Source of the DNA: Erodium maritimum
Lineage: Eukaryota; Streptophyta; Magnoliopsida; Geraniales; Geraniaceae
DNA length: 64,000 bases
Assembly: GCA_963921825.1 (NCBI GenBank)
Contig: OY997594.1
Span: 10,297,001-10,361,000 of the forward strand
Direction of reading: 5' to 3'
Position numbers and translations under genes: made by a program. The stretch's first letter is position 1; each line of letters opens with the position of its first letter. This document shows positions 12,005 through 17,881 of this stretch, piece after piece. The notes beneath the pieces were generated by a model that saw only the letters and a program-made list of their open reading frames with translations, did no database searches and was not told where the DNA came from.

Positions 12005-12013
12005 TTTTAAGTA

Positions 12014-12336
12014 GGGTTATTATCATCCGAGTATCCTAAAAATACTTGATTTTCATCCGAGTACCCTGAAAATTCTTTGCGACATTTTAGTACCCAAAAC
12101 ATACTTTGTCTTTCATATGAGTACCCAAACGCTTACGGCGTCAAATTTTGGACGGAAACAGGCCACATGTGCCCCTCATGTGCCAGTTGATGAGTTGAAA
12201 GGTCCATTATACCCTCCTCCCTAATTTATGTTATTTCCTCTCTCAGACACGACCCTCACTTCACTCTCTCACTCTGTCAGACACACGAAGACGAAGACGA
12301 AGACGAAGGAGGAACAGGTTGCAGAGGGAGACGACG
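12014..12336. repeat. Left terminal inverted repeat of the MULE
   Basis: Pairs with 17539-17872. It contains two copies of TCATCCGAGTAYCCT and a third variant TCATATGAGTACCC near the tip, likely transposase-binding repeats. Further in lies CT-rich sequence that may serve as the 5' UTR of the transposase gene. Confidence 0.9.
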
Positions 12337-12442
12337 AGCTTCAGGAATCAGAGGTAGACGACGAGCTAGGACTAGGGAGGAGGACCTTGCAGGTCGAACA
12401 CGAAGAGCGATTCAGAGGAAGTAGGTTCGCGATTCAGACGAG

Positions 12443-15400
12443 ATGAGGAGGGTAAGTGTTCTCAATCGATTTCGATAGTTAGGGTTTCGGAGTAGGAAAA
12501 AACTGCTTCGTTTATTTGTTTCAACGATTAAGGCGACTAATTTACAGTGTGTAAGGCTTTAGGAATCTGATTTTTAGGGTTTAGGGTTTTGATTTTAGGT
12601 TTCCATTTGTTTGTTTGAAGGAATTAGGGATCAATTCTGTTGTAAATGGTTTGTTTTGATTCCGTATATGTGCAGAAACGTGGTGCTGTAAAACCAAATC
12701 GTTTTGCTGCTGATGATCCCTTTCTTCTTCAACCTTTTTGTGTTGAACTGCATTTTGGGGGCAGTTTTGTGGGAGATGATAATAGGTATGAGGGGGGTTC
12801 TGTACGAGTTTTTCTTGTCCGTGAGGATGAATGTAGCTTCTACAAACTGTCCTACTTAGTGCATGAGGTAGGATGTGAGCCCACAAGTACCCTGCACTTT
12901 AAAGAAAGAAATGTAGTTAGGACTATGGTAAACGATGATAAGTGTGTAGGTAGATGGTTGAAGAGGTACAAAGGTACAAGGGCAGCTAGGAAGTTGTATG
13001 TAATAGATGGAGAACCACCACTATATATGGTGTCTCCGAGTGGGGTTATCTTGGGAGGGAGTGAGGCAAAGAAGAATGAGACTATAGGTTTACAAGTGAT
13101 GAAACCGAAGGAGAGGCAGAAACTGTATGAGGATGAGAACGAATATTTCTCTAGGAAAGGTCTTATTCATATGATAAAACATGGGCATAAGCTAGACAAA
13201 TTCTCCATGTTGGATGGAAGGAGGATTATTCAGGTGGTTCCAAGTGACAGTGAAGAAGAGGGCTTGGATGGAGGTCATGGCCAGAGGGGAAGTTTTTTTG
13301 GTATGAAAAAAGTTTACTCTTTATTTTTGTATTATGATATTATGTGTTACGAACCATAAAAATGTACAATTTTAATTTGTAATGTGATGTTGTTTGTAGG
13401 ATATGATAGTGATCTTGAAGATGAGTATGATAGTGATGGAGAAGCAGAGTATGGGTGTGGTGGTAGGGAAGGAGAAGCAGATTATGGGTGTGGTGGTAGG
13501 GATGAAGAAGAAGCCCATGCCAATGATGGTACTGATGAAGCAGCAGAATCTGAAGAAGTGTATGTCCATTTTGGTAGTGATGAAGAAGGTGATGTTGGCA
13601 TTGCTGGAGAGGAGGTCCAAGATGATGGGAATGGTGAAGATGAGGTCCATGATGAAGATCATGGAAATGCTGAAGATGAGGTCCATGATGCAGATCATGG
13701 AAATGCTGAAGATGAAATGGGTATGTAAATGACATTAGTATTGGAAGTTACTCTTCAATTTTGATGTTCATTACTTTTGATGCACTTAATATTTGGTAAC
13801 ATGTTCATATCATTTATGTAGGAAATGATAAAGATGAGTTTATTCAGGATGTAGATAACAGTATGGGGAAGGAGGCAATTGAGGAAGAAGTGCCCAGTGA
13901 GGTACCGTCTACTGAAGGAGGAGGGCAAACCAAAACAACGACAAATGAGGAAGAAGACCTAATTAGGAAGGAACGTAAGAGGAAAGGCAAAGCCCCATTA
14001 ACTGAAGAGGATGAGGAAGAGATGAATGAAGCAGCAAGGGAAGAGATGAATGACGATGAAGACGCAAATATGGGTAAGAAGCATATTCTGCTTTGTTGTT
14101 ATGAATTCATTACATTTAGGTATGTAACTGATATTCAGATGGTTTTGTGTACAGAAGATGAAGATGATGATGGTTTGTGTAACGGATGTTCTGAGACATT
14201 AGGTGTTCACGTCTGATAGGCAGAAGGTAAGTTGTCCTCTATATTTTTCATTCATACTGCATACTTACTTGTTTCCCATACCCAATGTAATAACACTGTG
14301 CTTCTTCCATGTAGGGGTTGCTGTCCCTGTTCAAAGAGTGGTTGCCCAACACAGAACACCGATTCTGCTTGAGGCATATGTACGAGAACTGGGTCCTCAA
14401 GTTCAAAGATGCAGAATTAGACTCACTCCTCTACGGATGTGCGAAAGCTTCATCTGTAGAGAGGTTTGAGCAACGAATGGAGGAGCTGAAGAGGCTGAAT
14501 GAGGATGCCCACAACTGGCTACGGGATATTGTCCCATCAGGTTGGTCCAAGGCATTTTATTCAAGTAGGGCTAGTAGTGACATTCAAGTAAATTCCATGA
14601 GTGAGTGTTTCAACAACTGGATGAGGAAGGGTAGGTCTAAGAGTATTTTAGATCTTTGTGAGTTTTATAGGCTTAAGTTGATGAAAATGTTCTTCAAGAG
14701 GAGTCACAAGTTTGATGAACCAAGTAGTACCCTCACACCTTATGCAATTACAATCCTAGAAGAGAACAAAGTTAAGAGTACTGAGTGTGAAGCAATTAAT
14801 AGTGAGGACTTAATCTTTGAGGTTAAGGAGGGTGAAAGGAACTACATTGTGGACATGATAGAGGAGAAATGTTCATGTAGGTCTTGGTTGTTATGTAGGA
14901 TACCCTGTAGGCATGCAATTGCTGCATTAGTACATCTTAGGGTTGAACCAGAGGAGTATGTGAGTGACTACTACTATGTGAAGACCTATAAGACCATTTA
15001 CTCACACTATATCCAGCCCCTGCCAAGTAGGGATGATTGGCCACTCATCCCACACTACCCCAAGGTTTTACCACCAATTGTGCAAATCCCACCTGGTAGA
15101 CCTAGGAGTAGGAGGGTTAAATCCAAGGCTGAAAAAATAATTGCAAATGCTAAAGTAAAGTCCAAGGTCATGAAGTGCTTTGTGTGTGGTGGGAAGGGGT
15201 ATAATTCTCGAACATGTTCTGCGAAAGACCATGGGGAGAGTAAGGCCAAAAGGAAAGTCAGAAAAGGGAAAAAATCTGGCCACACTACTACAGAGGATGA
15301 GTTTGCAGAGTTGATGGCTAACAGAAAGAGGAAGGTCGAGGAGAACTTGCATAAGAAGCGGAAAAGAGAGTGCTTTAAGGAGGAAATTGAAAAAAAGAGG

Positions 15401-16111
15401 CATGCTGCTCTTGAAAAGTTGAACAAGAGGAGGAAACATACCAAGGATAAACAGGTATGAAACTGTCATAACAATCCTTGCTGAATTTTTGCATTCCATG
15501 GTGAACCTTTGAAACCTTGGCTTTCTTCATATTCATTGTAGGTTGACACAACCACACCAGCTACGATGGGAAGTCAAACAGGTAGTCCACCTACTGTTGG
15601 CTTAGCTCAAGCTGACCTTCACCAAAGCAGACAAAAGAATCAGGTATTAAACTGTCATTCCAATAACTTAAATGTTCTAACCTTTTATGCTTGGATACAA
15701 TATGTAGATGGGTATGAATCTGACATACCATGATTTGTTCTGCAAACTGCTATGGGAAGTGAATCAGGTACTCCTGCTACATCACAACACCCACTTGGTA
15801 TTGGCTTAGCACAATCTGAGGTCAACAACACAAGTCAGAGCAATCAGGTATGAAACTGTCATACAAACCTTACCTTACCTGTTATGAACTGTCTGCTACC
15901 ATTCATATGGATTTAGTTGCTGAAATTTTCAATTCCTTGCTCAAATCTTCTGCTGTAGAGCCCCTTTGTGTCTCTGAGAGGACAAGAATCTGGGACAACA
16001 AGAACTGAGGATGCCCAATTTGTGAGAGGACAAAGAGGCAGAGGAAGGGGGAGAGTACGAGGAAGAGGAAGGGGAAGAGGACCTTCAAGGAAACCCACCT
16101 CTTCCACATGA
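12443..16111 (+). pseudogene. mudrA-like MULE transposase, internal deletion derivative
   Basis: A likely first exon is ATG AGG AGG at 12443-12451 with donor GTAAGT, spliced to 12676 in phase; ATG 12646 is the alternative start. The N-terminal MULE domain (FCVELHFGGSF, KLYVIDGEPPLYMVSPSG) ends at 13300. Acidic exons 13400-13720 and 13822-14074 follow. From VFTSDRQK (exon end 14226) the reading resumes at 14315 with GLLSLFKEWLPNTEHRFCLRHMY, then a SWIM zinc finger (CSCRSWLLCRIPCRH) and a knuckle CFVCGGKGYNSRTC in which the usual His is Tyr. The last exon ends in an RG-rich tail at 16109-16111. The block between the acidic linker and SDRQK, normally holding the first catalytic Asp residues, is absent, and the frame is unclear around 14075-14210. 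No catalysis is expected. Confidence 0.88.
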
Positions 16112-16431
16112 TCTGCAGTAGCCCCTCCTCCTTGGATTCCTTAGGGTTTGTGGGATTTGTTTTGTGGCTGTGGTAGGAATATGTCAACTTTTGGGAGAAT
16201 GGGTATTTTTTGGAATTTTGTGGTGGTTGTAGAAGTAATTAATGTGGAAAGTAACTTGTGCACATGTATGATGGGGACAAGGACACAGGGTGTAAGGCTT
16301 TATAGCCTTTTTGTTTTGGATGGATGAACACAACACCTTTCTTATGCACACTTTCAATGCTATATTTTACCAACATTTAAATTTGTGAATGAGTTCTGAT
16401 TTTCAAATGACCAATATACCTTGCAGGTAAA

Positions 16432-16716
16432 CAATTTCTGTGTGAATGAGTTTTGGACATTAGGTTTGTGGCACACAAACAGATGGGTCATGTCAAAATG
16501 TCAGAAAACTACTAGTTTCAGATTAGTACCCATCATCAAATTCAACAACCAGGCCAGTTCCATTCCCCTTTCTTTCAAATACCAAGTAGTACCCTCACAC
16601 CTTATACAATTTTTGTGTGAATGAGTTTTGGACATTAGGTTTGTGGCACACAAACAGATGGGTCATGTCAAAATGTAAGAAAAATACTAGTTTCAGATTA
16701 GTACCCATCATCAAAT
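16432..16716. repeat. 110-bp direct duplication with a copied piece of transposase exon
   Basis: 16432-16541 and 16607-16716 are the same sequence with about three mismatches. Between them, 16581-16611 matches transposase exon 14719-14749 at 30 of 31 bases. The copied piece and the second repeat overlap in CAATT. Confidence 0.85.
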
Positions 16717-16911
16717 ACCAACTTTCATATTAATACCCATCTACAAATTGAACACAAGTAGGCACATTCCATTCACATTTCCTTAACATACCAACTTCAA
16801 ATTCATATTAATGTACAACTTCAACACAAGGACAACAATTTCATTCCAATTCACTTACAATACCAAATGTCTGATACAACCCATGACCTAATACAAGGAA
16901 TTCATTACATT

Positions 16912-17491
16912 TTACCTAAGACAATACAAAACAAGTCCTACAATGATGAACAACACAGCAATTAAATTTCGGGGGATGTCTTTCTTCAGATCCACCTCCA
17001 TCCTCATCCTTAAATTGATTTCTTCTTTTCCAGGTACAGGAACCCCAGCAATATTGCACGGCTCTTCATCAATCCAGCAGAAAAACTTGCACTTCCATCC
17101 ACGTTATGAACAACATTTACCAAAAATTAGCCTCAAATATTGAAAAACCCTAAATTTCACATAAGTTCAATAAGATTTCCCAGAGATTAGCTCCCAAATT
17201 TGTAAAACCCTAATTTTCACACAAATTGATTAACACAATACTTATTTCAGATATGAACGACCCTTACCAGAAATTACCCCCAAAAAGTGTAAAACCCTAA
17301 TTTCACAGAAGTTGAATAACACCAAAATTGGTTGAGCTTACACTGTACATCCCACAGCCACCAAACCTTCTTCCAGGGTTATCCTTCGTCCTCGAGGTTT
17401 GTATGGCTGCTGGAACTCCACAGTAGCAGTACAACTCCTCAATCTTCATGTTCCGAAACCCAGAACTGGCGCCCTTTGATTTCATCGACAT
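16912..17491 (-). CDS. GRF zinc-finger protein with C-terminal membrane helix, carried by the MULE
   Basis: Exon 1 is 17491-17342 and exon 2 is 17091-16912; the intron runs from GTAAGC to an AG at 17093-17092 and joins in phase 0. The 109-aa product starts MSMKSKGASSGF. It has a GRF-type zinc finger: CYCG (Cys22, Cys24), then TSRTKDNPGRRFGGC (Cys46), then CKFFCWID (Cys51, Cys55). Near the C-terminus is a hydrophobic segment (LIAVLFIIVGLVLYCL). GRF fingers bind nucleic acid in other proteins; small plant proteins of this build (for example At4g04775-like) have no firm function. The frame is whole, with no stop or shift. It occupies the place of mudrB in MuDR-like elements. It could be a captured host gene or a standing part of this transposon family. 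Confidence 0.8.
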
Positions 17492-17538
17492 CCAGGCTTC
17501 GTCTTCGCGGTGCAAGCTGCTCCTCCTTCTCAATCAAC

Positions 17539-17872
17539 CGTCGTCTTCCTCTGCAACATGCTCCTCCTTCGTCTTCGTGTTCGTGTGTCTGACAGAGTGA
17601 GAGAGTGAAGAGAGTGAGAGAGTGAAGCGAGGGTCGTGTCTGAGAGAGGAAATAACATAAATTAGGGAGGAGGGTATAATGGACCTTTCAACTCATCAAC
17701 TGGCACATGAGGGGCACGTGTGGCCTGTTTCCGTCCAAAATTTGACGTTGTAAGCGTTTGGGTACTCATATGAAAGACAAAGTATGTTTTGGGTACTAAA
17801 CTGTCGCAAAGAATTTTCAGGGTACTCGGATGAAAATCAAGTATTTTTAGGGTACTCGGATGATAATAACCC
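17539..17872. repeat. Right terminal inverted repeat of the MULE
   Basis: Inverted copy of 12014-12336 with about seven substitutions. Relative to the left copy it has an extra tandem piece of about 21 bp (CACTCTCT motif) and one fewer GAAGAC repeat. It is expected to hold the promoter of the leftward GRF gene. Confidence 0.9.
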
Positions 17873-17881
17873 TTATAAGTA

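Follow-up and report, generated by a model that had tools for sequence, protein, structure and literature searches.

What is a gene for a small GRF zinc-finger protein doing inside a DNA transposon, at the place where maize MuDR carries mudrB? The question is raised by positions 12014–17872 of a 64,000-nucleotide stretch of the Erodium maritimum genome (contig OY997594.1, positions 10,297,001–10,361,000; hereafter the window), a Mutator-like element (MULE) insertion with both termini present. The element holds the remains of a mudrA-type transposase gene and, convergent to it, a two-exon gene whose product joins a GRF finger (PF06839) to a hydrophobic C-terminus. An earlier reading of the letters, below called the original prediction, had left it between a gene kept for a role in trans and a recently captured one. 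We find that the GRF gene is an old, integral and selected second gene of a group of MULEs, occupying the mudrB position.

The first line of evidence is linkage. We searched the genome (763 Mb, 40 contigs) with GRF exon 1, GRF exon 2, the mudrA core and the mudrA SWIM exon, and later with two further GRF queries; the GRF exon-1 search scored 150 matches of 701 candidates. All linkage counts given here are among the matches listed, and a locus with no listed GRF match is not proof of absence. A convergent GRF gene lay downstream, within 12 kb, at 125 of 186 merged mudrA loci and GRF solely in another arrangement at none (0/186), whereas random placement of GRF yielded a mean of 0.72 linked mudrA loci and a maximum of 3 in 100 runs. 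Viewed from the other side, 78 of the 150 GRF exon-1 matches had a convergent downstream mudrA within 12 kb and 0/150 had one in another arrangement only (random placement: mean 0.83 in any arrangement). Other copies thus carry the same gene in the same place, which the original prediction had named as a check.

Graded by mudrA identity, GRF was found within 12 kb at 9/10 loci of at least 90%, 21/24 of 75–90%, 22/29 of 65–75%, 45/55 of 55–65%, 10/22 of 45–55% and 16/31 of 40–45%. At identities of at least 55% this amounts to 97 of 118 loci within 12 kb and 103 of 118 within 20 kb; the wider limit brought the top band to 10 of 10 (9 at 12 kb) and the 65–75% band to 25 of 29 (22 at 12 kb). The locus gained in the top band had been missed because its element is in two halves ~14.6 kb apart (L015 and L028, G000:C4:20674523–20695865; outer 9-mer identical), probably split by a nested insertion. 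Distance accordingly accounts for part of the mudrA loci without GRF at 12 kb. The first GRF lists already placed the gene at 52 of 63 mudrA loci of at least 65% identity. An apparent absence of GRF from the 55–65% band was entertained and dropped: the count there was first 20/55, then 45/55 after the two further GRF queries. Four of the 35 mudrA loci at first without GRF in this band (identity 56–60%) were retrieved, and all had a diverged convergent copy; at L036 the pattern gave exon 2 only and a further GRF query gave exon 1, and at L039 the pattern gave exon 1 only.

One further query also brought up several dozen GRF exon-1 matches of near-equal score on many chromosomes (for example G000:C4:44059160 and C3:71260374), with 77% identity over residues 6–40 in a 61-aa frame. 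Among the 110 exon-1 matches that newly entered with this query, 18 were linked to a listed mudrA locus. The near-equal matches are perhaps a recently multiplied GRF-bearing element.

The two genes have also diverged in parallel. Across the 34 loci where both could be read, pairwise GRF and mudrA distances were correlated with a Mantel r of 0.85, a value reached by none of 2000 permutations (0/2000; highest, 0.38), and the two trees have their main clades in common, with many inner nodes weakly supported. The ratio of nonsynonymous to synonymous substitution (omega, dN/dS)—another check proposed at the outset—lay between 0.23 and 0.51 for GRF in all ten pairs of five groups (10/10), with upper 95% bootstrap bounds of 0.42–0.82, all below 1; a shifted-frame control on the same alignments gave 0.63–1.75. 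For the mudrA SWIM exon, omega was 0.13–0.24 in 6/6 group pairs. Synonymous divergence between the same groups was lower in GRF than in the SWIM exon (dS 0.46 vs 0.99 for groups 1 and 3). The omega rows comprised 27 of 40 stop-free rows and no frame-shifted ones.

Host genes are often taken up by MULEs, as described in parts of one account (PMC6446971), and the GRF gene might be such a Pack-MULE-like capture, recent, confined to one element and without function. The chance of this now looks negligible: linkage in the same place down to about 40% mudrA identity, parallel divergence and purifying selection together argue against recent capture, and we rejected it. Nor did we see the few copies or, among the PF06839 matches that could be read, the close host locus that mark a Pack-MULE. 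A PF06839 profile search of the genome returned six matches above the cut-off, and no near host source of the GRF gene appeared among the readable ones (L029 and L030, which share one frame, L031 and L032); for L033 and L034 no frame could be read with the pattern used. The readable frames resemble what we take to be cellular GRF genes of the repair or topoisomerase type.

What kind of protein has been kept? For 103 of the 150 exon-1 matches, the same strand carried an exon 2 no more than 2.5 kb further on. The single intron measures 182–536 bp in the 11 close copies; among the other 92 it is 97–122 bp in 64, 123–200 bp in 21 and of other lengths in 7, with the splice sites at the same position across lineages. 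Among the 58 GRF genes in which both exons were present, 40 were stop-free; 30 of the 58 had an AG acceptor and one continuous frame, which in L063 could be followed only as far as the retrieved stretch reaches. In the stop-free rows cysteine stood at the four zinc-ligand positions in 39, 37, 39 and 33 of 40, the seven rows without the fourth cysteine being those frame-shifted at that point, and the W and D of an FFxWID motif were present in 40/40. Profile scores for PF06839 (cut-off 25.9 bits) were 29.7 bits in the window, 31 in L056 and 32 in L040.

The finger is followed by a hydrophobic end. Scored as a 17-residue stretch of mean hydropathy at least 1.6, it was found in 37 of the 40 stop-free rows; the rows without it were two frame-shifted ones (L059, L078) and one in which the retrieved stretch ends (L063). 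L040, which is linked to a mudrA with 42% identity in the SWIM exon, encodes a GRF finger, a coiled coil and a hydrophobic C-terminus; such C-termini also occur in L064, L061 and L038, though not in L036 in the frame read. That a coiled coil precedes the tail in distant forms, and that the tail is short and differs in composition between lineages, would suit a helix for self-association or transposase binding, in a protein acting in the nucleoplasm. We regard this as unlikely, since in all 37 rows, which take in the compact forms and the coiled-coil form L064, the best 17-mer reaches a mean hydropathy of 1.8–3.4 and lies 0–6 residues from the end.

Several observations weigh against an old, selected accessory gene. 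GRF was not listed within 12 kb at 61 of 186 mudrA loci, and below 40% mudrA identity it was found at 2 of 15. Its constraint is weaker than that of mudrA, and the tail varies more than the finger (between-group pN/pS 0.42–0.76 vs 0.29–0.51). One shifted-frame control (0.63) falls below the highest upper bound of the real pairs (0.82), the choice of stop-free rows lowers omega somewhat, and within-group pairs are not independent. There are also signs of decay: 18 of the 58 genes with both exons have stops; 7 of the 40 stop-free rows change frame where exon 2 begins (L046, L051, L053, L055, L073, L075, L076); L059 and L078 are frame-shifted ahead of the tail; and the window copy and L078 have no AG acceptor. 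Finally, an uninterrupted mudrA was not seen in the seven copies with listed open reading frames (ORFs), whose exons were not fully modelled.

Taken together, a stop, a frame shift or a lost acceptor in 28 of 58 GRF genes, a within-group omega of 0.36–0.60 and the want of an uninterrupted mudrA in those seven copies could mean that the gene was selected in the past and is now a tolerated passenger, decaying neutrally in present copies. We consider this quite improbable in view of the close family. Close as well as more distant copies turned up when the genome was searched with the element's DNA, and 20 of these regions were retrieved. Both termini were seen in nine sister loci, and eight of these are insertions flanked by perfect 9-bp target-site duplications (TSDs; L009–L014, L017, L018), whereas in L019 the TSD is not perfect. 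Among 11 close-family GRF matches (at least 90% identity in exon 1), seven have an open frame in each exon (window, L009, L011, L013, L014, L017, L018), six of them, the window excepted, with an AG acceptor; L010, L012, L016 and L028 are broken. The open GRF genes and the perfect TSDs imply that the family, with GRF aboard, has transposed in the fairly recent past. In L013 an extra terminal inverted repeat (TIR) end of 131 bp lies beyond the second TIR (L013:7285–7590), and the TSD agrees at the outermost end.

The window copy shows how the two genes are arranged. Its terminal and mudrA features are as follows:

12005–12013, unstranded: left TSD, TTTTAAGTA, read from the letters
12014–12336, plus strand: left TIR, from self-comparison of the window and TIR alignment
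12443–12451, plus strand: probable first mudrA coding exon, ATG AGG AGG followed by GTAAGT, as read from the letters
12676–13300 (ends approximate), plus strand: mudrA N-terminal exon, within ORF 12646–13359
13400–14177 (approximate), plus strand: acidic, repeat-rich mudrA exons, split by introns, from ORFs, self-comparison and letters
14178–14181, plus strand: deletion junction, an internal loss of 1,098 bp with 4 extra bases, from comparison with L009
14318–15460 (ORF bounds), plus strand: mudrA C-terminal exon with SWIM zinc finger (PF04434)
15957–16112 (start approximate), plus strand: probable last mudrA exon, encoding an RG-rich tail, as read from the letters
16428–16541 and 16603–16716, unstranded: 114-bp direct duplication (96%) between the 3' ends of the mudrA and GRF genes
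17539–17872, minus strand: right TIR, from self-comparison of the window and TIR alignment
17873–17881, unstranded: right TSD, TTATAAGTA, read from the letters

The TIRs of about 330 bp are 92% identical over 334 nt (a 263-nt portion is 98% identical, and inner segments complete the arms), and the TSD 9-mers TTTTAAGTA and TTATAAGTA agree at 8 of 9 bases. Long TIRs, a 9-bp TSD, within the 8–11 bp range, a MULE domain in the sister copy L009 and a SWIM finger place the element among TIR-type MULEs. The SWIM match in the window is clear (E 1.3e-7, 31.4 bits vs a cut-off of 19.6). The MULE domain PF10551 (E 3.6e-10) lies in a 283-residue piece of L009 whose counterpart is deleted from the window copy; the MuDR DNA-binding domain PF03108 scores 24.8 bits in L009, just under the cut-off of 25, and the L009 counterpart of the N-terminal mudrA exon gave no Pfam match at E ≤ 0.1. 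The Mutator-like element proposed for these coordinates is accordingly borne out by its TIRs, TSD and mudrA remnants, and so is the loss of the transposase core, as 1,098 bp including the PF10551 stretch are absent relative to L009. Within a two-gene MULE family, the window element represents a copy that has lost internal sequence and is non-autonomous.

On the opposite strand lies the GRF gene:

17342–17491, minus strand: GRF exon 1, encoding the N-terminus and first part of the finger, from homology search and Pfam scan
17117–17303, minus strand: part of the GRF intron with three diverged 40-nt direct repeats at spacings of 60 and 87 bp, from self-comparison
17104–17105, minus strand: acceptor position of most copies, AA in the window and AG in 39 of 42 modelled copies
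16912–17091, minus strand: GRF exon 2, encoding the last finger cysteine, linker, hydrophobic tail and stop, after the 109-aa model of the original prediction

Some 48 bp separate its start codon from the inner edge of the right TIR. Both mudrA and GRF begin just inside a TIR, on the MuDR-like plan that had been proposed. PF06839 (E 6.9e-7, 29.7 bits, cut-off 25.9) is the sole Pfam match at E ≤ 1; the scanned string had 112 aa, three codons (GWK) being kept ahead of the exon 2 of the 109-aa model. A convergent, two-exon GRF zinc-finger gene with a hydrophobic C-terminus is thus present, as claimed. The further description of this gene as complete and undamaged holds in part. In that model exon 2 begins at an in-frame AG four codons past the usual acceptor, and the coding frame is therefore open in both exons; at the usual acceptor the window has AA instead of AG, as do L019 and L078, among the 42 of 58 copies tried that could be modelled. 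Judged from these letters, normal splicing of the window copy is doubtful, and with its acceptor changed this copy lends no support to the proposed role in trans.

The non-coding DNA of the element contains short boxes and a duplication. Each 40-nt repeat in the GRF intron bears a TTAGGGTTT-type box. Seven TAGGGTTT/AAACCCTA boxes, which we take to be telo-box-like, occur in the 5.9-kb element vs 19 in the whole 64-kb window; six of the seven adjoin the TIRs, at 12480–12590 and 17117–17303, in the probable first mudrA intron and the GRF intron, and L009 and L011 also have such boxes. By match pattern, the 114-bp duplication (16428–16716) is common at least to L010 and L012.

The main rival to a membrane-bound helper is an anti-silencing factor whose targets would be repeats in non-coding parts of the element itself, as with VANC in VANDAL elements. 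The diverged repeat units of the GRF intron, whose length varies among close copies (182–536 bp), and the 114-bp duplication between the two genes fit this view, which would also account for selection on a gene other than the transposase. In the account of VANC21 that we draw on, its target tandem repeats lie also in the introns of VANC21 and VANB21 (PMC5735166). VANDALs, as far as the cited passages go, are non-TIR MULEs (PMC13317346), and VANC has DUF1985/DUF287 (PMC5735166) and no GRF finger, whereas the window element has long TIRs and a protein matching PF06839 only. A membrane tail would also be odd in a chromatin factor. We therefore hold anti-silencing to be possible, if doubtful.

How, then, might an old accessory gene serve its element? 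Like other GRF fingers, this one may bind single-stranded nucleic acid, and the hydrophobic tail would anchor the protein in a membrane, most plausibly the endoplasmic reticulum or the nuclear envelope. So placed, it could keep the transposase complex, or nucleic acid of the element, at the membrane and thereby aid transposition or upkeep of the element; the gene would take the place of mudrB in the MuDR plan without encoding MURB. We lean, with modest confidence, towards an old and selected MULE accessory gene in the mudrB position whose product is probably a tail-anchored, nucleic-acid-binding helper. A more specific version, in which the nuclear envelope is where the tail-anchored protein would hold the transposase complex or the element's DNA in single-stranded form, so that transposition itself is membrane-associated, is speculative and in our estimate improbable. 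To our knowledge, an accessory of that kind is not known from other DNA transposons.

The role of mudrB-type second genes in MULEs is an old question. GRF is a second gene of quite another kind, which selection has maintained alongside the transposase gene through deep divergence, and the biochemistry of its domain is known from other proteins. It makes that question testable, in terms of transposase need, single-stranded DNA binding, membrane location and silencing. Our results also suggest that, of the plant genes carrying the annotation GRF zinc finger, many may belong to transposons. Plant proteins named At4g04775-like presumably are of the same kind as the element protein. In peanut, the genes found to be differentially methylated include GRF zinc finger genes, in the portion of that study cited (PMC6293580); that these are transposon genes is a guess.

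How does the gene compare with known systems? The finger is shared with NEIL3, APE2 and TOP3A, where it is part of repair enzymes, whereas here it belongs to a small protein with a C-terminal tail; in a PDB sequence search with the L056 protein, the best matches were NEIL3 GRF chains, and weak (E 0.061 and 0.21). Further genes in MULEs are already known—mudrB, mutB, vanB and vanC are on record in the sections cited (PMC6446971)—and for a GRF-type second gene we found no earlier description in the open-access literature searched, in which no paper joined GRF zinc fingers with MULEs or transposons (subscription papers and repeat databases lay outside the search). The VANDALs of Arabidopsis, with VANB and VANC, resemble the element as MULEs with genes beside the transposase and tandem repeats in introns, and differ, in the parts of their accounts cited above, in being non-TIR and in carrying DUF1985/DUF287 instead of GRF. 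Abermu of barley and other plants is a MULE with a reverse ORF (ORFR), which in type II has the transposase ORF on one side and the 3' TIR on the other; parts of its description give ORFR a Ka/Ks below 1 and no similarity between distant species, and 'GRF' has 0 occurrences in the text covered (PMC9168764). Type II ORFR has the same place and orientation as the GRF gene. MuDR of maize, with its 9-bp TSDs, shares with the window element long TIRs, TSD length, a mudrA-type transposase and a second gene on the opposite strand—one transcribed opposite to the transposase gene also in the published passages on MuDR (PMC9168764)—and the window's second protein is set apart by its GRF finger and hydrophobic tail.

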